From NCBI RefSeq assembly GCF_019375555.1, contig NZ_JAHXDN010000001.1:62001-126000 (forward strand): DNA of 64,000 nt, in the 5' to 3' direction. A program made the position numbers and the translations under genes. This document shows, one piece after another, positions 735 through 15,022 of the stretch. Source of the DNA: Roseobacter insulae. Its GTDB lineage: Bacteria > Pseudomonadota > Alphaproteobacteria > Rhodobacterales > Rhodobacteraceae. Each line of letters starts with the position of its first letter. Position 1 is the stretch's first letter. Below the pieces are notes generated by a model that saw only the letters and a list, made by a program, of their open reading frames with translations, made no database searches and had not been told where the DNA came from.

Positions 735-1733
735 TCAAAGCAGGTGATGCAAGGGGTCGGCGAGGCGCTCTGCAAATCCCGACATCAGGGCGATTGCGGC
801 GGCGTCATCCAGTTGGCCAGTGGTGAAATCAAGGCTCAGGCGCAGCCACTCGCCGTCGCTCGCAATGCTGAGAACGGGCGTCGCGTCAGCGCTCAGGCGC
901 AACCCGGTGATCGGACTGCCCGTCAGGTCCCTCAACACAATGTCCGCCGCATCAGTCGGCGCTGCGACCTGATGCAGCAGCCGCGTCTTGTCGGGGTTCA
1001 GCACGGCACCTGTCGCGCCGGTCAGATCGGAAAGCATCACGGTCAGATCACCGGCATCCGGCACGGCGCGGCGCATCGCACCGGCGGCAAAGCTGGCCCA
1101 GAGCGCAGTGGCGGCAATACTGATCCCACCGTCTTCCAGCATCCACGCGAGAAATTCATCGGTCCCGGCGCGCGGCGCGCTGGCGGTGATCTGAAACAGC
1201 CCGGGCGCGATGTCCGGGCCATTGCGGCCTGCCACCGGCAGATCTTTCAGCACCTCGATATCCACAGCGCGATAGGGTTGCGGATGCCCGGCGGCAACCA
1301 GTCGGTTGAGGTCCAGCCCCGCCTGATGGGCAAGCCGCCGCGCCTTGGGGGACGCGAGAACACGGCCGTCGCCCGCTGGGGCCTCGGCCTTCCGTGCCTG
1401 CGGCGGCCGCGGTGCGGGCGCATCGGGCTTTGTGACCGGCGTGTCGGCCTGCGCCACCGGCTTTGCGGCAGGCTGCATCGTGGGCGCCTGGGGTTTTTCT
1501 GCGCTAATAATCGCGATGGTCTGACCGGTCGGGACGTCCTCTCCCGGCTCTGCCAGCAGCGCCGATATGTATCCATCCGCCCCGGCGGGCACTTCCATCG
1601 TGCTCTTGTCGGTCTCAACCTCGAACAACACATCCTCGGCGGTTACCGCGTCACCCGGCGCTTTCTGCCATGTGACCAGCAGGCCGGAGTCCTGCGCCAT
1701 GCCAAGCACTGGCATGATCACCTCATGCGGCAT
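735..1733 (-). CDS. Lipoyl-domain E2-like protein with degenerate acyltransferase domain
   Basis: A 332-residue protein laid out like a dihydrolipoamide acyltransferase. The lipoyl domain spans about 1-78, with the lipoylation lysine K43 in VETDKSTMEV. An Ala/Pro-rich linker follows (about 79-120), then a peripheral-subunit-binding domain (about 124-160) and a shortened C-terminal domain (about 175-332). Normal E2 catalytic domains are near 230 residues and end in a DHRVVDG-type motif whose His and Asp do catalysis. Here the corresponding stretch reads LDFTTGQLDD, so the catalytic His is absent. The start overlaps the end of the E1 beta gene by 11 bases, which suggests translational coupling. 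It may serve as a lipoyl carrier or scaffold rather than as an acyltransferase. No E3 gene is visible in the window. Confidence 0.8.
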   Translation of the reverse strand: MPHEVIMPVLGMAQDSGLLVTWQKAPGDAVTAEDVLFEVETDKSTMEVPAGADGYISALLAEPGEDVPTGQTIAIISAEKPQAPTMQPAAKPVAQADTPVTKPDAPAPRPPQARKAEAPAGDGRVLASPKARRLAHQAGLDLNRLVAAGHPQPYRAVDIEVLKDLPVAGRNGPDIAPGLFQITASAPRAGTDEFLAWMLEDGGISIAATALWASFAAGAMRRAVPDAGDLTVMLSDLTGATGAVLNPDKTRLLHQVAAPTDAADIVLRDLTGSPITGLRLSADATPVLSIASDGEWLRLSLDFTTGQLDDAAAIALMSGFAERLADPLHHLL

Positions 1734-2718
1734 CTATCATCTCCCCGGACATCAGCTTGCGGGCGGTGTCGGCAACGCCTTCGGGCGTGGGCACGGTGAT
1801 ATCTTCCAAAGCCGGGGAAAACGGCACCGGCACATCCATCGCGCCCATCCGCAGCGCCGGTGCATCCAGATGATAGAAGGCCTTCTCGTTGATCCGGCTG
1901 GCGATTTCCGCCGTGACACCAAAGCTCTGGTGCCCTTCATCCACAACGATCACGCGGCTGGTTTTCCGGGCCGAGGCCAGCAGCGTGGCCTCGTCCAACG
2001 GCACGATCGTGCGCGGGTCGATCACTTCCGCGGAAATCCCCTCGGCGGCAAGCAGGTCAGCGGCCTTTTCACAGACCTGCACCATGGAGGATGTCCCGAT
2101 CAGCGTGACATCCGTGCCGTCGCGTTTGATATTGGCCTCGCCGAAGGGGATCAGGAATTCCTCTTCCGGCACCGGGGCCTTGTCCTGATACATCAGCTTG
2201 TCTTCGAAGATCACCACCGGGTTGTCGTCCCGGATCGCGGTTTTCAGCAGCCCCTTGGCCTCGTAGGCCGAACTGGGCAGCGCAACCTTCAGACCGGGGA
2301 TATGGGCCACCAGCGCATGCAGCGATTGCGAATGCTGGGCCGCCGACCGCCGTGTCGCCCCGAGGTTGGTGCGCAGGACCAGCGGCGCGCTCATCTTGCC
2401 GCCCGACATGTAGTGGGTCTTGGCCGCCTGATTGCACAGCTGATCCATGATCAGAAAAATGAAATCTCCGAACATCAGGTCGACGATGGGCCGGGTGCCG
2501 GTCATCGCAGCCCCCACGGCCAGCCCCATGAACCCCGGCTCCGCAATCGGCGTGTCGACCACGCGGCTGGTCCCGAATTCCTCGACGAGGCCGGACAGGA
2601 TCTTGAACGGCGTGCCGGCCTCCGCCACGTCCTCGCCAATGATGAAGGTGGTCGGGTCGCGGCGCATTTCCTCGGCCAGCGCTTCGTTCACGGCCTGCGA
2701 CAGTGTAATTTCCCGCAT
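1723..2718 (-). CDS. 2-oxoacid/acetoin dehydrogenase E1 component, beta subunit
   Basis: A 331-residue transketolase-like beta subunit of a thiamine diphosphate-dependent dehydrogenase (AcoB/PdhB/BkdB group). It begins MREITLSQAVNEAL and contains the family segments IGEDVAEAGTPFK, VDTPIAEPGF and, near the C-terminus, VIDPRTIVPLD and VVDEGHQSFG. Start 2718 is chosen over an upstream in-frame codon at 2784 because homology begins here and an AGGAGAGAG stretch precedes it. It pairs with the E1 alpha gene 10 bases upstream to form the alpha2beta2 decarboxylase or ligase-cleaving enzyme. By family the substrate could be pyruvate, a branched 2-oxoacid or acetoin. The catabolic setting, with no housekeeping E3, favours an acetoin-type or specialised substrate, but this is inference. 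Confidence 0.9.
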   Translation of the reverse strand: MREITLSQAVNEALAEEMRRDPTTFIIGEDVAEAGTPFKILSGLVEEFGTSRVVDTPIAEPGFMGLAVGAAMTGTRPIVDLMFGDFIFLIMDQLCNQAAKTHYMSGGKMSAPLVLRTNLGATRRSAAQHSQSLHALVAHIPGLKVALPSSAYEAKGLLKTAIRDDNPVVIFEDKLMYQDKAPVPEEEFLIPFGEANIKRDGTDVTLIGTSSMVQVCEKAADLLAAEGISAEVIDPRTIVPLDEATLLASARKTSRVIVVDEGHQSFGVTAEIASRINEKAFYHLDAPALRMGAMDVPVPFSPALEDITVPTPEGVADTARKLMSGEMIDAA

Positions 2719-2728
2719 CTCTCTCTCC

Positions 2729-3727
2729 TCAGGCCAGCGCGTGCCGGACGTCGGTAAAGACGTGCATGTCGACCTCCGACACATCGGGGTATTTTGCGTT
2801 CAGCGCGTAATCCACGGCGTCGGCGGCTTCGGCCCTGATCTCGGCGTTCACCGCCTCCAGCGCGTCATCCGACGCGATGCCTTCCGCCACCAGCCACGAC
2901 CGGAACCGGATGATCGGATCGCGGTTTTCCTTCCAGTCCTTCTCCTCTGCCCTGGAGCGGTAGTAGTCACGGTTGATGTCGCCCACGTGGTGCCCGTGAT
3001 AGCGGTAGGTCATGAGCTCGATGAAAAACGGGCCGTCGCCGGTGCGGGCGCGGGCCACCAGTTTCTGGGCCAGATCATTGACCGCCAGCACGTCCTGACC
3101 ATCGACCTGATGCGCTTCGATACCGAAGGCCTCCGCACGGGCAAGGATGGACCCGGCGGCAATCTCGTCAGTGCGGGTGTATTCCGAATAGCCGTTGTTT
3201 TCACAGGCATAAATCACCGGCAGGCGCCACAGGGCGGCCATGTTCATGACCTCGTACATCAGCCCCTGCGCGGTCGCCCCGTCGCCGAAAAAGCAGACAG
3301 TGACATCCTCGGTACCCAGCAGTTTGGCGGTAAATGCCGCGCCCGTGGCAATACCCATCGACCCGCCCACGATCGCATTCGCCCCGAGGTTCCCGTTCGA
3401 CTGATCGGCAATATGCATCGACCCGCCCTTGCCGCGGCAATAGCCTTCTTCCTTGCCCAGCAGTTCGCAGAACATCTCTTTGAAATCCGCCCCCTTGGCC
3501 ACGCAATGGCCATGGCCGCGATGGGTCGATGTGATCTTGTCGGTGACGGTCAAGGCTTCGCAGATGCCTACCGCCACGGCCTCTTCACCCGAATACATAT
3601 GGGTCAGCCCCGGCATCTTGGCCGACAGGTACAGCTGGTTGGCGTTGTCCTCGAAGGTTCGGATGCGCACCATCTGGCGATACATGCGCAGGTAGTCTTC
3701 GGAATTGGTCTGCTTGGCGGGGCTCAT
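2729..3727 (-). CDS. 2-oxoacid/acetoin dehydrogenase E1 component, alpha subunit
   Basis: A 332-residue thiamine diphosphate-binding alpha subunit (AcoA/PdhA group). The TPP motif is clear: GDGATAQG, followed about 25 residues later by ENNGYSEYT. Also present are the phosphorylation-loop-like HRGHGHCVAKG and the TYRYHGHHVGD segment. Two in-frame ATGs exist at 3733 and 3727. The second is preferred because the AAGAGA ribosome-binding sequence lies about seven bases before it and is too close to the first. It sits 57 bases after the M24 gene on the same strand and is followed closely by the beta subunit, so the complex is made from this operon. Confidence 0.9.
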   Translation of the reverse strand: MSPAKQTNSEDYLRMYRQMVRIRTFEDNANQLYLSAKMPGLTHMYSGEEAVAVGICEALTVTDKITSTHRGHGHCVAKGADFKEMFCELLGKEEGYCRGKGGSMHIADQSNGNLGANAIVGGSMGIATGAAFTAKLLGTEDVTVCFFGDGATAQGLMYEVMNMAALWRLPVIYACENNGYSEYTRTDEIAAGSILARAEAFGIEAHQVDGQDVLAVNDLAQKLVARARTGDGPFFIELMTYRYHGHHVGDINRDYYRSRAEEKDWKENRDPIIRFRSWLVAEGIASDDALEAVNAEIRAEAADAVDYALNAKYPDVSEVDMHVFTDVRHALA

Positions 3728-3784
3728 ATGCATATCTCTTCGGAAAAGAGCCCGGCCCCGAAAGGCCGGGCAGTCTCAGGGAGG

Positions 3785-5083
3785 TCAGTAGCGATTGGCG
3801 ATTGGCAGGTCTTCGGCGGGGAAAAGGCTGATCACCTCGCAGCCGGCCTCGGTCACCACCACCTCTTCCTCGATCCGGGCCGCCGAATAGCCGTCGGCGG
3901 CGGGGCAATAGGTCTCCAGCGCGAAAACCATGCCGGTCTGAATCTCCATCGGATGATCCAGTGACACCGCCCGGCTGATGATGGGCCGCTCGTGCAGCGC
4001 CAATCCCAGCCCGTGCCCAAACTGCAGCCCAAAGGCCGAATCCTCATCCGGAAACCCGAATTCCTCCGCCCTGGGCCAGACCTCGGCCACCTTGTCGGTG
4101 CTCACCCCCGGTCTGATCATCGCGATGGAGGCATCGATCCATTCGCGCGCCTTCACATAGGCATCGTTTTGCGCAGGTGTCGCCCGGCCGATGTTGAAGG
4201 TCCGGTAATAGCAGGTGCGGTAGCCCTGATAGGATTGCAGGATGTCAAAGAACGCCTGATCGCCGGGCCGGAAATACCGGTCGGTGAAGTTATGCGGATG
4301 CGGGTTGCAGCGCTCGCCGGAGATTGCGTTGATCGCCTCGACATCGTCGGACCCCATCTCGTAGAGCATCTTGTTGCTGAGCGCGACAATATCGTTTTCG
4401 CGCACGCCCGGTTTCAGCTCTTCGTAGATCATGTGATAGACGCCATCGACCATGCTGGCCGCCTGGGTCAGTAGCTGGATCTCGTCCCAGTTCTTGATCT
4501 CGCGCGCCGCCAGCATGATCTGCTGGCCGTCAACGACATTGATGCCCTCTTCCTTCAGCGCGTGGAACATCGCGGTTTCCGCATAATCCACACCCACGGG
4601 CATATCGGCCATCCCCGCGTCACGGATCAGGCCCGCGATTTCCCGGGCATATTTGCGCATCAGGCCGAATTCCGGCGGGATCGTGCCGCGCATGCCCACC
4701 ACCCCGGCCCGGCAATGCTCCGGCACCAGCCAGTCGGAAAACTTCTTGTGGTGCATCGCGGCAGAGCCGAAATCCCACACGTAGGGGGCGTCATCGCCGG
4801 TCAGCAGGCAGAAACGGCACATCTTGTCGCGTTCCCATTCGCCGATCTTGGTGGACGAGACGTAGCGGATGTTGTTCACGTCGAACAGCAGCAGGGTGCC
4901 GGCGCCGGAGGCCTGAAGCGCCTGCCGCGTGCGCGCCAGCCGGTAGCGGCGCAGACGGTCATGGTCGATCCGGCGTTCGAAATCGACCGATGTATGACCC
5001 CAGGCGGGCAGACGCCCCTCCCACTGCCAGTTGGGTTCAAGGTCCTGCGGGGTCAGCAGGTTCGGCATCAAGGCACGTGACAT
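3785..5083 (-). CDS. M24-family (creatinase/aminopeptidase P fold) protein with altered metal site
   Basis: A 432-residue protein with a creatinase-like N-terminal domain (about 40-190) and a pita-bread C-terminal domain (about 200-430). M24 metallohydrolases use five metal ligands: Asp, Asp, His, Glu, Glu. Here the first is present as D280 in AFFDIL, His as H357 in GHGLGL, and the glutamates as E390 in ALETY and E405 in RIEEE. The second Asp, expected in a GYxxDxxRTF context, is Cys291 in GYRTCYYRTF. The fold is shared with Xaa-Pro aminopeptidases, creatinase and the marine DMSP lyase DddP. I do not call it DddP, because that enzyme keeps all its aspartates. The gene lies between a short-chain dehydrogenase and the E1 genes, so a role in the island's catabolic pathway is more likely than general peptide turnover. 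An AGGA sequence precedes the chosen start. Confidence 0.75.
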   Translation of the reverse strand: MSRALMPNLLTPQDLEPNWQWEGRLPAWGHTSVDFERRIDHDRLRRYRLARTRQALQASGAGTLLLFDVNNIRYVSSTKIGEWERDKMCRFCLLTGDDAPYVWDFGSAAMHHKKFSDWLVPEHCRAGVVGMRGTIPPEFGLMRKYAREIAGLIRDAGMADMPVGVDYAETAMFHALKEEGINVVDGQQIMLAAREIKNWDEIQLLTQAASMVDGVYHMIYEELKPGVRENDIVALSNKMLYEMGSDDVEAINAISGERCNPHPHNFTDRYFRPGDQAFFDILQSYQGYRTCYYRTFNIGRATPAQNDAYVKAREWIDASIAMIRPGVSTDKVAEVWPRAEEFGFPDEDSAFGLQFGHGLGLALHERPIISRAVSLDHPMEIQTGMVFALETYCPAADGYSAARIEEEVVVTEAGCEVISLFPAEDLPIANRY

Positions 5084-5166: not shown

Positions 5167-5976
5167 TCACTGGATGCACCAGCCACCATCGATGTGGATC
5201 ATCTGGCCGGTCATGTAGTCGCTGTCGTCACTGGCCAGAAACGAGGCGGTGCCGACGATGTCATCGGGATAGGACACCCGCTTGATCTGCAGCGCGTCGC
5301 GAACGATGTCGTCATAGGCCTGCCCTTCCCGCTCCTTGAAACCGATGTCGACAAGGTCCTTGTCGAGCTGTTCCCAAAGCGGGGTGACAACGACGCCCGG
5401 CGCATAGCCGTTGACCGTGATGCCATGCTCGGCCAGCGCCACGGCCCCGCAATGGGTCAGGGCGAGACAACCGTATTTGGAGGTACAATAGACCGTTACA
5501 TCCACCAGTGGCTTGCGCGAGGCGATGCTGCCGACATTGATCAGCTTGTAGGGATGCCCTTCCATCGGACCCTGGGCAATCATCCGACGGGCGGTTTCCT
5601 GCATACCCAGCCACATCGCCTTGGTGTTGACGTTCATGATCATGTCCCAGTTGTCTTCGTCGATATCCATGAAGAACCGGGGTTTGTTCAGGCCCGCGTT
5701 GAAGACGCCCACGTTGATGCTGCCGAAATTGTCGACGGTTGCATCGACGGCAGCGGCATTGTCCGCGCGTTTCGTGACATCCATACGGACCGCAATCGCC
5801 GAGCCGTTGCCCTTGGCATTGATCCCCTCGGCAACGCTTTGCGCCTTGTCCTGATCCAGGTCACCGATGCAGACATTGGCCCCCTGGGCGGCAAAGGTCT
5901 CGGCGTTGGCCTGGCCCATGCCGCGCGCGGCACCGGTGATCAGAATATTCTTACCTTTCAGGCGATTGGGGTCCAT
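5167..5976 (-). CDS. Short-chain dehydrogenase/reductase (SDR), island copy 1
   Basis: A 269-residue classical SDR. It has the TGAARGMG cofactor-binding glycine motif near residue 15, NAGLNKP, a catalytic serine in GSIASR and the catalytic YCTSK tyrosine/lysine. It ends in the usual MTGQMIHIDGGW. No signal peptide is visible; it should be a cytoplasmic NAD(P)-dependent alcohol or polyol dehydrogenase. Start 5976 is chosen because GAGGAGGA lies just upstream and homology begins at once; an upstream in-frame codon at 6087 would only add an unrelated tail. It follows the regulator gene by 16 bases. It is clearly paralogous to the SDR at 9072-9869: both share NAG(L/V)NKP, a following Asn-Trp, SIASR and DSDYMTGQ. 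The two may act on successive or epimeric substrates. Confidence 0.9.
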   Translation of the reverse strand: MDPNRLKGKNILITGAARGMGQANAETFAAQGANVCIGDLDQDKAQSVAEGINAKGNGSAIAVRMDVTKRADNAAAVDATVDNFGSINVGVFNAGLNKPRFFMDIDEDNWDMIMNVNTKAMWLGMQETARRMIAQGPMEGHPYKLINVGSIASRKPLVDVTVYCTSKYGCLALTHCGAVALAEHGITVNGYAPGVVVTPLWEQLDKDLVDIGFKEREGQAYDDIVRDALQIKRVSYPDDIVGTASFLASDDSDYMTGQMIHIDGGWCIQ

Positions 5977-5992: not shown

Positions 5993-7822
5993 TTATTTTT
6001 GTCGATTGTCGTCAAGCGTGGCATCCGCGCGTTCCTGCGCCCGCCGCAAGGCGTCGCGCGGGGGGACGATCCCGCGCAGCATGTCATGCAGTTCCTCGCC
6101 GCAGATGCGGATCACCTCGCTGATCTCCGGCACCGGTGGGCGCGGCCAGAACTGCAACTCGTCCCGCCACGACATCGCGTCCACAGCCTCGAATATCGGC
6201 GAGGCGCGGCGCACCTCCGGATCGGCGCCGACGGAGTAGCGCGGGTTGGTGCGGCTGCCATTCTGGACATAGAGTTTCTGCGCCTCGGGCGAGGTGAACA
6301 CGCGCAGCGCTTCGGCTGCGGCGGCCCGGCGGTCCCTGGGCAGGTTGGCCGGTATGCCCATCACGTAACCGCCCACCGGCGCCACCGGCGTGGCTCCCGG
6401 CCCCGCCGGGTGCGGCAGGAACCCGGTCTGCCCGAAGGCGGGCGACGCGGGGTCGCCTTCGAAATACGGGGCGAGCAGCGTATAGCCATATGCCATCGCC
6501 ACATTACCGGCGGCAAAGGGGCGAATACGCTCGTACCATGACATCGACAGAATATCGGGCGGCGAATATTTCAGCAGCTCCATCAGGTATTCGGCGGCCA
6601 GCAACCCGGTTTCGGTGTCGATGGTGAAGCGATAGCCGCCGCGGTCCAGCTGTTCGGTGTCAAAGCCCCCGGCGATCTGGTGCAAGTCCACGATCGGTTG
6701 TCCGAAATCCGACAGGGTGGTCAGAAACGTGTGGCCCAGCGCGGTGCCCCGGGCGGCGTTCCACGCGATCCCGTAGCGCCCATGGTGCGGGTCGTGCAGC
6801 GCTTTGGCCGCGCTCAGCAACGCGTCGGTGGTGGCGGGCGGCTCCAGCCCGGCATTGGCGAACCGGTCACGCCGGTAAAACAGCAGCTCCGGCGTCGTCT
6901 GGGCCGGAACGCCGTAGGCGCGGCCGCCCCAATGGGCCGCCTTCCAGCCCGCGGTATGGAAATCTGCCGGGTCCAGCCGCGCAATATCCATGACCTCGTC
7001 CAGCGGCAGCAACACGCCCTTCTCGACGAATTCACCGATCCACGGCAGATCCACGGCGATGATGTCGTAGCGGCTGGTCGGCCGCTCGGCGTTCTTCAAC
7101 GCCTCTTCGCGCAGCCGGTCGATTGAAAAGGCGCGTTGCTGGATCTGCGCGCCGATCACCTGTTCGAACTGCCGCTTGAGGGTTTCCATCACCATGAAGG
7201 TCGGATCGCCATGCACCAGAACCCGCACACCGCCCGACAGCTTCAACGGCTCGCCAAGCACCTGGAGCGGCGGGATGGACTTGGTCGCCATATAGGAACC
7301 GCCGAAATAGTAGTCCGCGGATTCGGCGCGCATTTCACTGGCGCCGAATTCGATCTCGGCCAGACGCCGGACGCGCGCCGAGAGCTGCATCCAGCCGTCA
7401 AACAGCAACTCGCTCGGATGCAGCGAGAAACTCTTGCCCGAGCGGGTGCGCGGACGCTGTTCGATCAGCCCGGTTTCGATCATCTCCTTCACGCGGCGCG
7501 AGGCCGTGGCATAGGGGATATGCGATGCCGAGATCAGCGAGGTCGGCGTGACCGTCTTGCCCTCGATATGATTGCGGATCAGGAACAGGGACATCAGGAA
7601 GAAGGGGTTCGGCGCAAAGACCTCGATCACGTCTTCGAGTTCTTCGCAGAAGCTTTCCAGAAACGAGATCACCTGCAGCATTTCGATCCGGTCGCGCGGC
7701 GAGACTGTCTGAAATGTCAAAGCTGAGCCGTCCATAGGTCTGTACCGTTTTGCATCCCGGTCGGGGGGGTGCGCCGGGCTTGGCGCATTTTTGTTCGATT
7801 TGGACAAATTCGATTCGGTCAT
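5993..7822 (-). CDS. Predicted cytoplasmic regulator: winged-helix DNA-binding domain fused to a MalE-type solute-binding-protein fold
   Basis: A 609-residue protein. Residues 1-38 are polar with no signal peptide. About 45-160 look like a MarR-type winged helix: a helical stretch, then TPTSLISASHIPYATASRRV as helix-turn-helix and a wing around EQRPRTRSGKSF. About 197-590 match family 1 extracellular solute-binding proteins, with GVRVLVHGDPT at the first strand, then YDIIAVDLPWIGEFVEKG and the PLDEVM hinge region typical of sugar binding proteins. Lacking an export signal, the protein should stay in the cytoplasm and use the binding-protein fold as a ligand sensor. It is the first gene of the minus-strand operon and diverges from the ABC importer, the classical position for a local regulator. 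The importer's own binding protein belongs to a different (ribose-type) family. Ligand, and whether it activates or represses, are unknown. Confidence 0.75.
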   Translation of the reverse strand: MTESNLSKSNKNAPSPAHPPDRDAKRYRPMDGSALTFQTVSPRDRIEMLQVISFLESFCEELEDVIEVFAPNPFFLMSLFLIRNHIEGKTVTPTSLISASHIPYATASRRVKEMIETGLIEQRPRTRSGKSFSLHPSELLFDGWMQLSARVRRLAEIEFGASEMRAESADYYFGGSYMATKSIPPLQVLGEPLKLSGGVRVLVHGDPTFMVMETLKRQFEQVIGAQIQQRAFSIDRLREEALKNAERPTSRYDIIAVDLPWIGEFVEKGVLLPLDEVMDIARLDPADFHTAGWKAAHWGGRAYGVPAQTTPELLFYRRDRFANAGLEPPATTDALLSAAKALHDPHHGRYGIAWNAARGTALGHTFLTTLSDFGQPIVDLHQIAGGFDTEQLDRGGYRFTIDTETGLLAAEYLMELLKYSPPDILSMSWYERIRPFAAGNVAMAYGYTLLAPYFEGDPASPAFGQTGFLPHPAGPGATPVAPVGGYVMGIPANLPRDRRAAAAEALRVFTSPEAQKLYVQNGSRTNPRYSVGADPEVRRASPIFEAVDAMSWRDELQFWPRPPVPEISEVIRICGEELHDMLRGIVPPRDALRRAQERADATLDDNRQK

Positions 7823-8038
7823 GTTGCCCTCTCCCTCAAAATGTTCAGAATGGCCGCGGACCAGTATTGCTTAGATATCCGATCTGGACACCAGGATTCT
7901 CAAATTGGATATTTTCGGGGGATTTCAGCACACCGGATTTCGCCACCCTGTCGGAGCCAATCCGATCAACGGATAACGATTCCCGCGGAGGAGAGCCGGG
8001 AATTGGCAGAACAAGAATGTTACCCGGGAGGAAACACT
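7823..8038. promoter_or_regulatory. Divergent promoter/operator region of the catabolic island
   Basis: The 216 bases between the regulator and the ABC binding-protein gene must carry both operons' promoters. The octamer ATCCGATC occurs twice in direct orientation, at 7877-7884 and 7960-7967, 83 bases apart (close to eight helical turns). The second copy lies in a perfect inverted repeat, ATCCG-ATCAA-CGGAT at 7960-7974, about 65 bases before the transporter start. These are reasonable operator candidates for the adjacent regulator. I could not assign a confident -35/-10 pair. Confidence 0.5.
7960..7974. promoter_or_regulatory. Candidate operator: ATCCG-N5-CGGAT inverted repeat
   Basis: Perfect 5-bp arms around ATCAA form a 15-bp palindromic element upstream of the ABC transporter operon. 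Its left arm is part of the octamer ATCCGATC that recurs at 7877-7884. A role as binding site for the winged-helix regulator is inferred from position only. Confidence 0.4.
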
Positions 8039-8995
8039 ATGAATATCCGCACGACTCTTGCTGCAACCTCTGCCCTGGCCATGACGGCTGTCGGCGGATC
8101 GGTCGCGGCCGAAACGATGACCATCGGCATCACCCAGAACAACGTGGGTGTCGACAGCTATCAGACCACCTACGAGAAAGCGTTTATCGCCGCTGCGGAA
8201 GCCAACAGTAAAGTTGATGTCGTGGTTCTGGATGCCGGCGGCGATGTCGCGCGCCAGATCGCCCAGATGGAAGATCTGATCCAGCAGGAAGTTGACGCCA
8301 TCATCATCTGGCCCACCAATGGCGAAGCCGTCATTCCTGCGGTGCGCAAGGCAAGCAAGGCCAACATCCCCGTGGTTGTGACCAACTCCAACATCGCCGA
8401 GGCGGGCTTTCCTTTCGTCGCGTCCTTCTCCGGCCCTGACAACATCACGCAAGGATCGCGCTCGGCGGAAATCATGTGTGACAAGTTCAAGGAAATGGGC
8501 ATCGAGAACGAGGCCCGCGTGGTGCAGATCTCCGGCCAGCCCGGCTACACGACAGCCATCGAACGCCAGAAGGGTTTTGATGACCGCCTGCCCGAGGTCT
8601 GCCCCAACGTGACGCTTGTCGAAACCCAGCCCGGTGACTGGAACCGCGAGAAATCCCAGAAGGTGATGGAAGCGTTCCTCGTCAAATATGATGACATCGA
8701 CGGCGTCTATTCCGGCGATGACAACATGGGTGTCGGCGCGCTGAACGCGGCAAAGGCTGCGGGCCGTGACGGCATCATCTTTGTCGGCGCCACCAACTTC
8801 GCCGTCGGCTACGAAGCGATGGAGCGGGGCGAATACTGGGGCTCGATCTACCAGTCTCCGGTCGACGATGCCAAGGCCGCGCTGAAAACCGCGATCGAGA
8901 CGCTGGAAGGCAAGGAACTGCCCTTCCTGAACTACTTCGACACGCCGAAGATCACCCAGGACAACATGGGCGACTTCACCAAGCCTGTTTTCTGA
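8039..8995 (+). CDS. Ribose-type ABC transporter periplasmic substrate-binding protein
   Basis: A 318-residue periplasmic binding protein of the RbsB/Peripla_BP_4 type. Residues 1-24 form a clear Sec signal peptide with cleavage after SVAA. The mature protein begins ETMTIGITQNNVG and shows the family pattern: QMEDLIQQEVDAIIIWPTN, then VVVTNSNI and GVYSGDDNMGVG. It delivers the ligand to the two permeases encoded downstream. Start 8039 is chosen because GGGAGG lies just upstream and the signal peptide follows; the open frame extends upstream to 7769 without coding character. It is the first gene of the plus-strand operon, and the stem-loop at 9007-9036 probably favours its expression over the later genes. 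Confidence 0.93.
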   Translation: MNIRTTLAATSALAMTAVGGSVAAETMTIGITQNNVGVDSYQTTYEKAFIAAAEANSKVDVVVLDAGGDVARQIAQMEDLIQQEVDAIIIWPTNGEAVIPAVRKASKANIPVVVTNSNIAEAGFPFVASFSGPDNITQGSRSAEIMCDKFKEMGIENEARVVQISGQPGYTTAIERQKGFDDRLPEVCPNVTLVETQPGDWNREKSQKVMEAFLVKYDDIDGVYSGDDNMGVGALNAAKAAGRDGIIFVGATNFAVGYEAMERGEYWGSIYQSPVDDAKAALKTAIETLEGKELPFLNYFDTPKITQDNMGDFTKPVF

Positions 8996-9071: not shown

Positions 9072-9869
9072 ATGGGTCGGGTCTCTGGACGGTCCTGCAT
9101 TGTCACGGGTGCTGCACAAGGCATCGGGCGCGCCATTGGCGAGGCGTTGCTGGATGAAGGCGCCGACGTTTGTTTTGCCGACATCAACGGCGAGAAGGTC
9201 GCCGAGGTGGCACTGGCGAACACAGATCGGGCCCGCGCGAACGGCGGCAGGCTGACGCACCGGGCGGTCGATGTCACCGATCGCGATCAGGTCTGCGCCA
9301 TGATCGGTCACGCGGTCGGGGTGTTTGGCAAGCTGGACGTGAAATTCAACAATGCCGGTGTCAACAAACCGATGAATTTCCTCGATGTCACGAACGAGAA
9401 CTGGCATTTCATCATGGGTGTGAACGGGCTGGGCTGCATGATCGGCATGCAGGAAGCCGCCCGCCAGATGATCGCGCAGGGCACCGGTGGCAAGATCATC
9501 AACACCGCCTCGATCGCCAGCCGCCAGGGGTTCGACAACGTCGCCCCCTATTGCGCCTCGAAATGGGCCGTGGTGTCATTGACCCAGTCGGGCGCGCGCG
9601 ATCTGGCCAAACACGGCATCACCGTGACCGGTTTTGCGCCGGGCGTGGTGGACACCGAGATGTGGGAGGAGGTCGACCGCGACCTGATGGAGATCGGCGC
9701 GGCCCAGCGCCCGGGGCAGGCAATGGAGGAGTTTTCCGCCGACATCCTGAAAGGCCGGGTCGCGCAACCGGATGACATAACCGGCACAACGACATTCCTC
9801 GCGTCAGCGGACAGCGACTACATGACCGGCCAGATCGTGATGATCGACGGCGGCATGACGCTGGTCTGA
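9072..9869 (+). CDS. Short-chain dehydrogenase/reductase (SDR), island copy 2
   Basis: A 265-residue classical SDR with TGAAQGIG at the cofactor site, NAGVNKP, a serine in ASIASR, the catalytic YCASK and a C-terminal DYMTGQIVMIDGG. Start 9072 follows GGGAGGAACC, a good ribosome-binding site; an in-frame codon at 9012 is rejected. It resembles acetoin/polyol dehydrogenases of the SDR family. The sequence is clearly related to the SDR at 5167-5976 in the divergent operon. It lies between the binding protein and the first permease, so it is expected to be co-expressed with the importer and to oxidise the imported compound or its first product. Confidence 0.9.
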   Translation: MGRVSGRSCIVTGAAQGIGRAIGEALLDEGADVCFADINGEKVAEVALANTDRARANGGRLTHRAVDVTDRDQVCAMIGHAVGVFGKLDVKFNNAGVNKPMNFLDVTNENWHFIMGVNGLGCMIGMQEAARQMIAQGTGGKIINTASIASRQGFDNVAPYCASKWAVVSLTQSGARDLAKHGITVTGFAPGVVDTEMWEEVDRDLMEIGAAQRPGQAMEEFSADILKGRVAQPDDITGTTTFLASADSDYMTGQIVMIDGGMTLV

Positions 9870-9936: not shown

Positions 9937-10911
9937 ATGGCACAGCTGACGAAATCTGACATCGGGGGTTTTCTGGCCCGACAGGGCATCCTTGTGGCCT
10001 TCGCCGTCTTCATCATCGGGTTCACTCTCGCGAACCCGCGGTTTCTTGACCCCGATAACATCATGGGCGTGATCCGCTCCTCCGCCATTCTGGGCGTGAT
10101 GGCGCTGGGGGTTACCTTCGTGGTGATCAGCGGCAACCTCGATCTTTCCGTCGGGTCGATGATGTCCTTTTCGACTATCGTTGTGCTGGATCTTCACGAC
10201 AAGCTCGGGCCGACACTGGCGATCCCGGCAATGTTCGCGATGACCTTATGTCTCGGTGCGCTGATCGGGTTTCTGGTGGGCTACCTCAAGCTCAACTCAC
10301 TGATCGTGACGCTGGGTATGCTGTCGGCGATCCATGGCCTGACGCTGACCTACTCCGGCGGCAAGAACATGGACATCGCCGATAAGGAGGGCACGTGGTT
10401 CAGTGTCTTCGGGCAAGGCGACGCCCTGGGCATTCCCGTGCCGATCCTGCTCTTCGTCCTGCTGGCGGCCTTTCTGGGCATCGTGCTGGCGAAAACGCCC
10501 TTTGGCCGCAAGGTCTATGCGGTGGGCGGCAACGGGGTCGCCGCGACATTCTCGGGCATCCGGCGGGCGCGGGTCGTCTTTACCTGCTATCTCGCCTCCG
10601 CCTTCTGCGTCGCAACCGCCGGCCTCCTTCAGGCCAGCCGGTCCATGGGCAGCCAGAACACGGTGGGCCAGGGGCTGGAGCTGGAGGTGCTGGCCGCCGT
10701 CATCCTGGGCGGCGCGTCCCTGCTCGGCGGCTCCGGCACGATCTTCAAGACCGTCATCGGCGTGCTGATGCTGGGGTTCATCCAGAACGGTCTGCTTCTG
10801 GTCGGGCTGCAGTTCTACGTCCAGTACGTGGTGACCTGGGTGATCATCATTCTGGCCGTCTGGCTCGATATCGCCGCCAAGCGCGGCACACTCTGGTCAC
10901 CGATCGCGTAG
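9937..10911 (+). CDS. Ribose-type ABC transporter permease 1
   Basis: A 324-residue inner-membrane permease of the RbsC/BPD_transp_2 family with about eight to ten hydrophobic segments. It contains the family motif ISGNLDLSVGSM after the second helix and, near the C-terminus, AAVILGGASLLGGSGT. The N-terminus is short and cytoplasmic. It should form the channel with the second permease encoded 13 bases downstream. Confidence 0.93.
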   Translation: MAQLTKSDIGGFLARQGILVAFAVFIIGFTLANPRFLDPDNIMGVIRSSAILGVMALGVTFVVISGNLDLSVGSMMSFSTIVVLDLHDKLGPTLAIPAMFAMTLCLGALIGFLVGYLKLNSLIVTLGMLSAIHGLTLTYSGGKNMDIADKEGTWFSVFGQGDALGIPVPILLFVLLAAFLGIVLAKTPFGRKVYAVGGNGVAATFSGIRRARVVFTCYLASAFCVATAGLLQASRSMGSQNTVGQGLELEVLAAVILGGASLLGGSGTIFKTVIGVLMLGFIQNGLLLVGLQFYVQYVVTWVIIILAVWLDIAAKRGTLWSPIA

Positions 10912-10924
10912 GGGGAACCGACAC

Positions 10925-11926
10925 ATGCAGGCTGGCACACTGAGCACTTTTCTCAAACGCGGCGCGATCTGGGGCTTCATCCTGTTCGAGCTGATCTTCT
11001 TCAGCGTCGCGGGCGCATTCCTGTCCCTCAGCGACAAGGCGTTCATGGACCTCGACAACATGCTGCGGCTGTTCAAACAGTCCGCCCCCATCGGGATCAT
11101 CGCGATGGGCATGACCATCATCATGATCAACGGCAATATCGACCTCAGCGTCGGAGCCACCTTCGCGCTCTGCGCCATTGTCCTGCTCGACAGCCTGACA
11201 TGGCCGATCTTTGCCGGGCTGGGCGACTGGGTGATCCCGGTGTCCTGGGCGCTGGCGCTGCTGACAGGCGTCTTGCTGGGGGCGATCAACGGGCTGATTG
11301 TCTGGAAGACCGGGGTGGATGCCTTCATCGTGACGCTGGGGTCCATGCTGGGCTACCGCGGGCTGGTCTTCATGTACAACGGCGAACAACCCACCAGCCA
11401 CCTGAACTGGACACTGGTGGATTTCGCCGAGACGCAGTTCCTGGGCCTGCACACCGCCACATGGTTCCTGCTGGCCGTGACCCTGGTGATCTGGTTCCTG
11501 ATGACCCGCACCATTCACGGCCGCAACGCCTATGCCATCGGCGACAACCGCGAAGCGGCCGTGAATGCCGGCATCCGGGTCGGGCCGCACATGATGATCA
11601 ACTTCATGATCATCGGCTTTCTGGCCGCCCTCTCCGCCGTGGTCTTCTATTCCGAAAGCGGCTCGGTCAACCCCAACGACGGCGAACTTTACGAGCTCTG
11701 GATCATCACCGCCGTGGTGCTCGGCGGCACCAAGCTGACCGGCGGCGCGGGTTCGGTGATCTCGACCTTCGGCGGCGTGCTGGCGATCCAGCTGCTGCGC
11801 AAGGGTCTGGGCCATATCGGCGCGGATACCTCGACCGTGAACCTCGTGATCGGGCTCATCCTGATCGCCGTGCTCTACCTTGACCGGCAACTGAACCGCA
11901 AAGGCGCAGAGGAGTTGAAGATATGA
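10925..11926 (+). CDS. Ribose-type ABC transporter permease 2
   Basis: A 333-residue permease of the same RbsC-like family as its upstream neighbour. It has INGNIDLSVGATFAL in place of the first permease's motif and AVVLGGTKLTGGAGS near the C-terminus. Two distinct permeases imply a heterodimeric channel rather than the usual RbsC homodimer. Its stop overlaps the ATPase start in an ATGA arrangement (11923-11926), indicating translational coupling. Confidence 0.93.
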   Translation: MQAGTLSTFLKRGAIWGFILFELIFFSVAGAFLSLSDKAFMDLDNMLRLFKQSAPIGIIAMGMTIIMINGNIDLSVGATFALCAIVLLDSLTWPIFAGLGDWVIPVSWALALLTGVLLGAINGLIVWKTGVDAFIVTLGSMLGYRGLVFMYNGEQPTSHLNWTLVDFAETQFLGLHTATWFLLAVTLVIWFLMTRTIHGRNAYAIGDNREAAVNAGIRVGPHMMINFMIIGFLAALSAVVFYSESGSVNPNDGELYELWIITAVVLGGTKLTGGAGSVISTFGGVLAIQLLRKGLGHIGADTSTVNLVIGLILIAVLYLDRQLNRKGAEELKI

Positions 11927-13443
11927 CCGGGCAAACCCCCGCCCTGCGTCTCGAAGGGATCGTCAAGACCTTCCCCGGCGTGCGCGCGCTCGATGGCGTG
12001 TCCTTTTCCGTCATGCCCGGCGAGGTCCACGCCCTGATGGGCGAAAACGGTGCCGGAAAATCCACCCTGATGAAGGTTCTCGGCGGTATCTACCAGCCCG
12101 ATGCGGGCCAGATCCTGATCGAGGAGGCCCCCACCGTCATGGCCTCCCCGCTGGAGGCCAAGGCCAAGGGGGTTGTCTTCATCCACCAGGAACTCAGCCT
12201 TGCAGACGAGCTGTCGGTTGCCGAGAATGTCTATCTGGGCGAGTTGCCACGCAAATCCTTCGGACGCGTCGACTGGGACAGGCTCTATGCGGATACCGAA
12301 AGAATTCTCGACCGGCTGAAGGTCGGGTTCACCCCGCAGACCCTCGTGGGCGATCTGTCGATTGCCAACAAGCAGATGGTCGAGATTGCCCGCGCCCTCA
12401 CGGTTGATGCCAAGGCGGTGATCTTCGATGAACCCACCGCCTCGCTGACCGATGCCGAAAAGGATGTGCTGTTTGAGGTCATCGCCGACCTCAAGGCGCG
12501 CAACGTGGGCATCATCTACATCTCGCACCGGATGGAAGAGATCTTCCGCATCACCGACCGGGTCAGCGTGCTGCGCGACGGCCAGCATACCGGCACCGCG
12601 ATCACCGCCGATACCAACGAGGAGGCGGTGACCCAGATGATGATCGGGCGCAAGCTCGACCTGTCGCGCAACGTCGCGCACCACGAATTGGGCGACGTGG
12701 CCCTTGAGGTGCGCAACCTCAGCTGCGGCCACCTCTACAAGGATGTCAGTTTCAAAATCCGGCGCGGCGAGGTGGTGGGTTTCTACGGGCTTGTCGGGGC
12801 GGGGCGCACCGAAATCGCGGAAACCCTGTTTGGGTTGCGCGACCCCTCTGCCGGGCAGATCCTGCTTGATGGTCAGGCGCTGCGCATAACCTCCCCTACC
12901 GACGCGATCGAACGCGGCATCTCACTGGTGCCCGAAGACCGCAAGGGCCAGGGCCTCGTGCTGGGCATGAACTGCCGGGACAATATGACCCTGCCGCAGG
13001 TCGACGATCTCAAAGCCGGGCCTTTCGTCGCCGAAGGCGCGGAGGTGGCGATCTTTGACCAGTATCGCGACCGGCTGGATATCCGCACGCCGGGCTGGAA
13101 GCAGCTTGTCGGCAACCTCTCGGGCGGCAACCAGCAGAAGATCGTGATCGGCAAGTGGCTCAGCATGCACCCCAATGTGCTGATCGTCGATGAACCGACC
13201 CGCGGCATCGACGTGGGCAGCAAATCCGAAATCCACAACCTGATCCGCGACCTCGCAGCGCAGGGCTACGCGGTAATCGTGATCTCCTCGGAAATGCCCG
13301 AGGTGCTGCATGTGGCAGACCGGATTTACGCTCTCTTCCAGGGGCGGATCACCCGCGAGTTCACCTCCGAGGACGTGACCGAGGACAGCCTCGTGCGGGC
13401 GATCTCGGGGCTTGCCGACAACGGCGGGGCGCAGGTGGCATGA
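11923..13443 (+). CDS. Ribose-type ABC transporter ATPase with two nucleotide-binding domains
   Basis: A 506-residue RbsA/MglA-type protein. The first ATPase half has a full Walker A, GENGAGKST, and Walker B IFDEPTAS. The second half has the usual degenerate A-loop region GLVGAGRTE, the PEDRKGQGL segment, the signature LSGGNQQK and Walker B IVDEPTRGID. The length is standard for the family. It overlaps both neighbours by four bases (ATGA), so permease, ATPase and the following dehydrogenase are coupled in translation. Confidence 0.95.
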   Translation: MTGQTPALRLEGIVKTFPGVRALDGVSFSVMPGEVHALMGENGAGKSTLMKVLGGIYQPDAGQILIEEAPTVMASPLEAKAKGVVFIHQELSLADELSVAENVYLGELPRKSFGRVDWDRLYADTERILDRLKVGFTPQTLVGDLSIANKQMVEIARALTVDAKAVIFDEPTASLTDAEKDVLFEVIADLKARNVGIIYISHRMEEIFRITDRVSVLRDGQHTGTAITADTNEEAVTQMMIGRKLDLSRNVAHHELGDVALEVRNLSCGHLYKDVSFKIRRGEVVGFYGLVGAGRTEIAETLFGLRDPSAGQILLDGQALRITSPTDAIERGISLVPEDRKGQGLVLGMNCRDNMTLPQVDDLKAGPFVAEGAEVAIFDQYRDRLDIRTPGWKQLVGNLSGGNQQKIVIGKWLSMHPNVLIVDEPTRGIDVGSKSEIHNLIRDLAAQGYAVIVISSEMPEVLHVADRIYALFQGRITREFTSEDVTEDSLVRAISGLADNGGAQVA

Positions 13444-14315
13444 GGCGCGCGGGCTTTGCGGGGCTGGGGCGCATGGGTCGCCGGATGGCGGCCAATTGCG
13501 CGCGAGCGGGCCACGATGTGACGGTCTGGAACCGCAGCAGCGGGCCCGCGCAGGCCTTCGTTCAGGCGGCTGGCGGGCGTATCGCGGACACGCCGGCGGT
13601 GCTGTCCGGCCAATCGGATGTCGTGATCACCATGCTCGCGGATGATGCGGCCGCCCGGTCGGTCTATTTCGGTGAGGGCGGGCTCATCGCTGCCCCCGGT
13701 GCCCGCCTTCTGGTCGAAATGGGCACGATGAGCCCGGCGCTGGTCACGCAGATTGCGCAGGCGGCAGCGGCGGCGGGCAAGCGGTTTGTCGATGCCCCCG
13801 TCTCCGGCGCCACCAATGCCGCCGAGCAGGCCACCCTGCTGATCATGGCCGGGGCGGACAGCGATCTTGCCCCGCAGCTTGCGCCGCTCTTTGACGCGAT
13901 GGGGCGCAAGACCATCTGGCTGGGTCAGGTCGGCGCCGGCGCGACGATGAAACTGGCGGTCAATATGCTGATCCACGGTATGAACCAGACGGTCTCCGAG
14001 GCGCTGTGTCTGGCCGAGAAGGCGGGCATCGCCACCGACCGCGCCTTTGACGTGATCGAAAATTCCGCCGCCGCCGCACCGATGCTGAAGTTCCGGCGTC
14101 CGATCTACCTCGATGAGGCCCGCCACGAGGTGACCTTCACCGTCGCCCTCGCCCGCAAGGATGTGGGGCTGGCGCTTGATCTGGCCCGGCGTACAGGCGT
14201 GCCGCTGCCGCAGACCGAAACCACCTACCAGGTTCTGAAGGCCGCCGAAGCGCAGGGTTTCGAAGCCCGCGACATGGCCGCCATCTTCAACTACATGCGA
14301 GGAAACACCGAATGA
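13440..14315 (+). CDS. 3-hydroxyisobutyrate dehydrogenase-family NAD(P)-dependent oxidoreductase
   Basis: A 291-residue beta-hydroxyacid dehydrogenase. It has the N-terminal GLGRMG dinucleotide-binding loop, the substrate-binding DAPVSGATNAAEQATL signature and the catalytic lysine in GAGATMKLAVNML. The family includes 3-hydroxyisobutyrate dehydrogenase and tartronate semialdehyde reductase; the residues do not decide between them. It is translationally coupled on both sides (ATGA at 13440 and 14312), so it belongs to the import operon and probably handles a hydroxyacid or semialdehyde intermediate. Confidence 0.88.
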   Translation: MRRAGFAGLGRMGRRMAANCARAGHDVTVWNRSSGPAQAFVQAAGGRIADTPAVLSGQSDVVITMLADDAAARSVYFGEGGLIAAPGARLLVEMGTMSPALVTQIAQAAAAAGKRFVDAPVSGATNAAEQATLLIMAGADSDLAPQLAPLFDAMGRKTIWLGQVGAGATMKLAVNMLIHGMNQTVSEALCLAEKAGIATDRAFDVIENSAAAAPMLKFRRPIYLDEARHEVTFTVALARKDVGLALDLARRTGVPLPQTETTYQVLKAAEAQGFEARDMAAIFNYMRGNTE

Positions 14316-15022
14316 AGGCAGCATTGTTCGTCGGCGGCTGGCAGGGTCACGCCCCCACACAATTCAGCGACTGGTACGAAGCGCTGCTGCGCGACAACGG
14401 GTTCGAGGTCGATGTCTACGACACGCTGGAACCGCTGGAGGATCCGGCCGCCCTTGCTGATCTGGACCTGATCACGCCGATCTGGTCCTCCGCCCGGTCC
14501 GGCCACAAGGACAAATACGGCAATATGACTAAGCCGCAGGAAGACGGCTTGCTGCACCTTGTCGGCAACGGCTGTGGCCTTGCGGGATGGCACGGTCACA
14601 TGGGCGATGCGTTCCGCGACCGCCCGACCTATCATTTCCTGATCGGCGGCCAGTTCGTCGCCCATCCGCCGGGCTGGCCCGACAATCTGCAGCCGCGCGA
14701 GGATTACATCGATTATGACGTGACGATCTGCAAACCGGACGACCCGATCGTTGAAGGGATCAGGAGCTTTCGGCTGACGACGGAGCAGTATTACATGCTG
14801 GTCGATCCCTCGAACGAGGTGCTGGCCACCACCACGTTTTCAGGCGACCACCTGTGGTGGATCGAGGGTACTGTGATCCCGGTCATCTGGAAACGCCGCT
14901 GGGACAGGGGCCGCGTCTTTTACTGCTCCATCGGTCACGAACTGGACGATTTGAAGGTCCCGCAGGTGACCGAAATCATCCACCGCGGCGCCGTCTGGGC
15001 GGCCGAGGGCAAGGCCCGCTAA
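14312..15022 (+). CDS. ThuA-domain protein (trehalose-utilisation-type, GATase-like fold)
   Basis: A 236-residue protein matching the ThuA family. It starts MKAALFVGGWQGHAP, followed by a predicted alpha/beta core and the GNGCGLAGWHGHMGDAF segment. ThuA proteins resemble class I glutamine amidotransferases in fold and occur in carbohydrate-use operons, including trehalose and sucrose catabolism, without a settled biochemical role. It is the last gene of the plus-strand operon, overlapping the dehydrogenase by four bases. Its presence supports a carbohydrate-like substrate for the island. Confidence 0.85.
   Translation: MKAALFVGGWQGHAPTQFSDWYEALLRDNGFEVDVYDTLEPLEDPAALADLDLITPIWSSARSGHKDKYGNMTKPQEDGLLHLVGNGCGLAGWHGHMGDAFRDRPTYHFLIGGQFVAHPPGWPDNLQPREDYIDYDVTICKPDDPIVEGIRSFRLTTEQYYMLVDPSNEVLATTTFSGDHLWWIEGTVIPVIWKRRWDRGRVFYCSIGHELDDLKVPQVTEIIHRGAVWAAEGKAR

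Follow-up and report, generated by a model that had tools for sequence, protein, structure and literature searches.

A predicted cytoplasmic regulator of Roseobacter insulae that joins a MarR-like winged helix to a family-1 solute-binding protein, and its probable operator dyads

What does a complete binding protein of the MalE type do in one chain with a winged helix, beside an importer that has a binding protein of its own? This question is raised by a single gene of the window (the whole stretch of 64,000 nucleotides of Roseobacter insulae DNA analysed here). A preliminary description had read the gene as a one-component regulator in which a winged helix precedes a full family-1 solute-binding protein (SBP), with no frameshift between the halves and no export signal. 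The ORF is intact and encodes 609 amino acids (5993-7822, minus strand, stop included in the coordinates), and it contains both halves. The search for the same domain pair that had been proposed confirmed 266 relatives in one genome collection, and the two halves are kept together in all of the best 80 of them. A frameshift or an assembly fusion was rejected, since a single ORF spans both halves in 80 of 80 loci and third-position changes run across their junction. The parts of the regulator are as follows.

5993..7822, minus strand: regulator gene (from residue 47 or earlier to residue 599 or later matched in 80 of 80 loci)
residues about 42-160: winged-helix half, MarR-like
7628..7699, minus strand: N-terminal helix, residues 42-65, possible dimer helix (helix from the model, dimer role putative)
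7415..7606, minus strand: winged helix, residues 73-136 (models, PDB matches, weak MarR_2 match)
7475-7513, minus strand: third helix, residues 104-116, probable recognition helix (models)
residues 120-124 and 132-136: wing strands (models)
7346..7411, minus strand: linker helix, residues 138-159 (models)
5999..7243, minus strand: family-1 SBP domain (MalE/TMBP-class), residues about 194-608 (Pfam, PDB profile, fold)

Ribosome-binding sites favour a start near residue 1, and none of 76 aligned rows has an in-frame stop in codons 4-27; an alternative start, an ATG at residues 25-33, is found in 73 of these rows. No export signal is visible by hydropathy, the measure being 0.29 for the regulator vs. 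1.37 for the importer's own SBP. This speaks against an ordinary exported importer SBP whose additional N-terminal domain has no role on DNA, the reading implied by the database name: the regulator is matched by 34 plasmid records, each over at least 80% of the query, and "extracellular solute-binding protein" is the name given in 26, with another name or none in the others. Plasmids of Phaeobacter inhibens and Tritonibacter mobilis are among those that carry the gene. Pfam also assigns SBP_bac_1 to the chain, and two distant members do adjoin family-1 importers. On the other hand, the adjacent importer already has a ribose-type SBP, and the listed stretches of two annotated loci from the window's clade contain no gene for a family-1 permease. 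The N half is kept as a domain, with a column identity of 69% on average (75% for the whole protein, 76 rows), and the locus carries probable operator dyads, described below. We regard an exported SBP as hardly credible, and the databases probably mislabel the family. The domain make-up, with a sensor and a DNA-binding domain in one cytoplasmic chain, supports a one-component regulator, both binding activities being predicted.

The winged helix that had been claimed is present in the predicted structure, and the best structural (PDB) matches of the predicted N-terminal fold belong to the MarR family. Pfam matches stay below cut-off: MarR_2 scored 21.5 bits at residues 80-125 of the full regulator (cut-off 27) and 23.6 bits with the N half alone, and MarR scored 13.2 bits (cut-off 24.6). 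At E 0.01, MarR_2 was matched by 16 of 50 family members. A profile search of the PDB with the N half gave a best E of 0.15, and none of the 17 families that the NCBIfam search of this half gave at E ≤ 0.1 was matched in more than 15 of the 76 members (best E 0.0012). In Pfam at E 1, the regulator has neither a listing for the GntR domain (PF00392) nor a match of the LacI or LysR type, and neither SBP_bac_5 nor SgrR_N, which we take to be the name of the N-terminal domain of SgrR, is listed for it; its locus (C1:67996-69822) is also absent from the 30 GntR matches of the genome. The head appears MarR-like by its modelled fold, with no Pfam match over the cut-off. The prediction is of a monomer; homodimerisation through the terminal helices may be envisaged, and the dyad symmetry of the sites described below agrees with it.

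The C-terminal half is assigned firmly. SBP_bac_1 was matched at residues 251-516 with an E of 2.8e-28 (100.2 bits vs. a cut-off of 26), and by 50 of 50 family members at E 0.01. The best PDB sequence match, 5iai, covers residues 202-599 (E 4e-31), and the modelled C half has the two-lobe SBP fold. It might still be argued that this half has ceased to bind a ligand and serves only for dimerisation or for contacts with other proteins, such as the ATPase of the importer, and the model is indeed poor at residues 523-560 (pLDDT under 50). The nearly full-length alignment with solved sugar- and polyol-binding proteins and the position of the invariant columns, 22 of 24 of which fall within the SBP half in 50 sequences, argue against this, and we consider it improbable. 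Sorbitol-, trehalose- and maltose-binding proteins are among the relatives of this half, and the neighbouring genes suggest a sugar, a polyol or a cyclitol as the ligand of the proposed sensor. A duplication of the importer's own SBP was rejected, as the preliminary description had foreseen: the two proteins belong to different Pfam families.

The SBPs 5iai (Arad_9887), TMBP (1eu8), Thermotoga MalE3 and the Agrobacterium vitis sorbitol SBP (4rya) share the fold and the sequence of the C half; unlike the regulator, they are transporter parts, and SBPs of this type are exported. LacI and LysR regulators use periplasmic-binding-protein folds as sensors, of other types and with HTH families other than that of the regulator. 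Architectures of GntR with SBP_bac_1 occur in Firmicutes. MarR proteins consist of about 140 residues and bind ligands in a helical dimer domain; the regulator has in common with them, by its model, a winged helix with flanking helices, and unlike them it carries an attached SBP and has no Pfam MarR model over cut-off. The closest precedent is the kind represented by SgrR from E. coli and DsvR from Vibrio cholerae, which are one-component regulators with an N-terminal HTH, a C-terminal whole ABC-type solute-binding domain and a sugar-related regulon (PMC13060122, PMC4021124). The N-terminal HTH and the whole binding protein are common to both kinds; SgrR and DsvR combine the HTH with SBP_bac_5 (PMC13060122), whereas the present family has SBP_bac_1, another head, other targets and another operator. 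The architecture had been called uncommon; an HTH joined to a whole ABC-type binding protein is already known (PMC13060122), and it is the pairing of SBP_bac_1 with a MarR-like head that is new. No description of a winged-helix/SBP_bac_1 regulator was found in the open-licence literature, which is weak evidence of absence.

The fusions appear to form one family rather than a series of repeated accidents: among the proteins listed, mainly from distant loci, full-length fusions scored at least 531 bits with the family profile and SBP-only proteins at most 213. Matches to the regulator at 1e-20 were found in 21 of 146 related genomes (two of them, G042 and G143, in the SBP half only), and matches to the family profile at 1e-40 in 9 of 385 genomes of the class and 5 of 299 genomes of the phylum, one in each set being restricted to the SBP half. 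The lowest identity among the members is 26% (Paraburkholderia). This is a distinct family, which reaches Rhizobiaceae, Paraburkholderia and genomes of 1.4 Mb. In one such 1.4-Mb genome, the family regulator (L144, 8307-9992) has relatives of the short-chain dehydrogenase SDR1 and the M24-family protein listed below nearby, together with a different ribose-type importer.

The regulator of the window lies between a divergent importer operon and catabolic genes on its own strand:

8039..8995, plus strand: ribose-type (Peripla_BP_4) SBP of the divergent importer
9072..9869, plus strand: short-chain dehydrogenase SDR2
9937-10911 and 10925-11926, plus strand: two ribose-type ABC permeases
11923..13443, plus strand: ribose-type ABC ATPase
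13440-14315, plus strand: 3-hydroxyisobutyrate/tartronate-semialdehyde reductase-like (HIBADH-like) gene
14312-15022, plus strand: gene in the ThuA place, named from the same position in two plasmids (no NCBIfam match at E 0.01)
5167..5976, minus strand: short-chain dehydrogenase SDR1, directly downstream of the regulator
3785..5083, minus strand: M24-family protein (nearest named family the DMSP lyase DddP, far under cut-off)
735..3733, minus strand: pyruvate-dehydrogenase-like E1 alpha, E1 beta and lipoyl (E2-like) genes

This arrangement recurs. The importer SBP gene is divergent from the regulator in 76 of the 80 loci (the contigs of the other four end at most 1125 bases before the regulator), and SDR1 follows directly on the same strand in 78, with a median gap of 19 bases. 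Counted at more than 50% identity, and as lower bounds because some loci are short, the permeases were present in at least 75 and 74 of the 80 loci, the ATPase in at least 73, M24 in 72, SDR2 in 70, E1 alpha in 43, E1 beta in 42, the ThuA-like gene in 28, the HIBADH-like gene in 25 and the E2-like gene in 2; the last is commoner than this threshold shows, being mostly 39-48% identical. A close regulator (at least 65% identity) and the importer SBP (E 1e-100) were found in the same 15 of 146 genomes. At E 1e-100, M24 was matched in 19 genomes, which comprise these 15, a further three whose regulators are distant (G032, G058, G117) and G131, which has no regulator match at 1e-20; G023 has a distant regulator and no M24 match. 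The identification of the M24 protein as DddP was rejected, as its score of 120.6 bits is far below the cut-off of 600 and it is clearly another enzyme. Its conserved association with SDR1 and the E1 genes points to a lyase or hydrolase step of unknown kind. A second M24/E1 alpha/E1 beta/E2-like module is found in the same genome about 93 kb past the end of the window (L165, 6934-11638, on G000:C1), with identities to the window's genes of 87%, 82%, 84% and 38%, respectively, and with no copy of the regulator among the ORFs compared.

The region 7823-8038, between the regulator and the importer SBP, had been proposed for DNA binding, and it holds a strongly conserved pair of dyads. We compared the corresponding intergenic sequences of the window and 81 of 83 loci (82 in all; L071, where the contig ends, and L119 were left out). 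All 82 differ, with a median pairwise identity of 46% and seven pairs more than 90% identical. The dyad TATCCA-N3-TGGATA occurs with at most two mismatches in 77 of them, vs. a mean of 0.8 and a maximum of 3 in 30 shuffles, and with at most three mismatches in all 82 (shuffle mean 8.5, maximum 13), counts to be read with the reservation that the motif comes from these very sequences, which are related to one another, and that shuffles and permutations leave their relatedness in. The best of 89 permuted half-sites reaches 9 instead of 77, and among half-site gaps of 0-8 only a gap of 3 gives 77, the next best giving 11. Two dyads exactly 21 bp apart are present in 69 of the 82 sequences with at most three mismatches each, and in 80 with at most four. 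The sites in the window are these:

7876..7890, no strand: predicted operator dyad 1, 2 mismatches to TATCCA-N3-TGGATA
7897..7911, no strand: predicted operator dyad 2, 3 mismatches, 21 bp from dyad 1
7842..7856, no strand: weaker dyad-like site, 5 mismatches, 34 bp from dyad 1
7792..7806, no strand: weaker dyad within the regulator's first codons as called, 4 mismatches, 84 bp from dyad 1
7944..7949, plus strand: CAnnnT element, probable -10 of the importer operon (putative role)

Taken alone, the window's own dyads, with 2 and 3 mismatches, are not outstanding (12 matches in the window vs. 10.6 expected). In 34 of 76 rows, the stretch of the 7792..7806 site holds a site with no more than three mismatches. 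Skermanella, which is within the 82 and has a 47% identical regulator with the same importer type, shows sites with 1, 2 and 3 mismatches. A dyad with at most three mismatches is absent from 8 of 13 distant loci (L104, L105, L110, L111, L112, L115, L116, L117); L106, L113 and L118 each have a single three-mismatch match, and L107 has a related palindrome at two mismatches. The site is thus probably clade-specific, as expected if recognition diverges. A genome-wide search for a regulon with the dyad was unproductive, with 76 matches per strand at two mismatches or fewer vs. 34 for a reversed control; among the matches listed, dyads with 2 and 1 mismatches lie at G000:C11:454580-454777 (L125), their starts 183 bases apart. 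The comparison of intergenic sequences makes the paired dyads the probable operator of the regulator.

The position of the dyads bears on the direction of regulation. In sequences anchored on the dyad pair, the CAnnnT element stands at +68 to +73 (C in 94%, A in 95% and T in 95%), starting at a fixed distance of 53 bp past the end of dyad 1, and a leftward element lies around -15 to -10; the window's own leftward -10-like sequence fits the consensus poorly. No TTGACA-like -35 upstream of the importer -10 is conserved in the 82 anchored sequences, and in sigma-70 scoring the commonest best match fell within the dyads themselves. If the elements are read as -10, the importer promoter would have the dyads near -73 and -52, and dyad 1 would cover the -35 place of the regulator's promoter. 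Such a layout is that of a self-repressing activator, as known from divergent promoters of the LysR and AraC types. We give about an even chance to the regulator acting in this way, as an activator of the rightward importer operon from the sites near -73/-52 and an autorepressor of the leftward operon. The same protein on the same operators could instead be a MarR-style repressor of both divergent operons, in which the apo-form shuts off transcription until a ligand on the SBP half frees it from DNA. The MarR-like fold agrees with this, as do the weaker dyads that reach the regulator's start and the SDR1, M24 and E1 genes downstream on its strand, which would need induction by the substrate and which plain autorepression would lower too. 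The fixed dyad-to-CAnnnT distance and the missing -35 suit activation better; together with the poor leftward element, the catabolic genes behind the regulator keep double repression a strong rival, which we put somewhat short of an even chance.

Whichever the direction, we hold with high confidence that the protein is a cytoplasmic one-component regulator with the family-1 SBP half as the predicted sensor and the MarR-like head predicted to bind the dyads. Very likely, an imported nutrient is sensed and the neighbouring uptake and breakdown genes are switched by the regulator. We infer that the SBP half, kept in the cytosol, would close on a small carbohydrate-like ligand, either the imported substrate or an early metabolite; the closure would be relayed through the linker helix 138-159 to the winged helix, which as dimers would sit on dyads 21 bp, i.e., two helical turns, apart between the regulator and importer genes.

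Distant regulators adjoin other importers. In G032 and G117, SDR1 relatives (60% and 55% identical) and M24 relatives (82% and 66%) accompany ribose-type importer genes only distantly related to those of the window. Members from Agrobacterium and Aminobacter have importers of family 1 or of the ribose type next to them, together with genes for Gfo/Idh/MocA or maleylacetate reductase, and those from Rhizobium, Sinorhizobium, Loktanella and Shinella lie beside Gfo/Idh/MocA, 2,3-butanediol dehydrogenase or intradiol dioxygenase genes. From these neighbours, the family sensor looks like one that serves several carbohydrate-like substrates. An intradiol dioxygenase adjoins the distant regulators of L111, L112, L115, L117 and L118, with maleylacetate reductase also nearby in L111, L112 and L115 and Gfo/Idh/MocA dehydrogenases in L111, L115 and L117, a combination that may point to a pathway leading from a sugar-like ring to hydroxyquinol.

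Our widest proposal, which we place only just below an even chance, is that of an undescribed family in which a MalE-class cytosolic sensor on a MarR-like head represses its own synthesis and also activates, working as a dual switch on dyads phased by two turns, and is portable across polyol-, cyclitol- and hydroxyquinol-type clusters whose importers are distantly related, in bacteria as far apart as roseobacters, Paraburkholderia and alphaproteobacteria with small genomes. A widespread and probably mislabelled family would thereby gain a concrete role in sensing within the cytosol, together with a predicted operator. As a binding scaffold, family-1 SBPs make up a very large group that has been studied well, and a natural fusion of one to a winged helix would accordingly show how clamshell closure is wired to transcription, a wiring useful for the design of biosensors. 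Moreover, the regulator marks uncharacterised catabolic clusters of the carbohydrate type in marine and soil bacteria, and its sensor could reveal their substrate.
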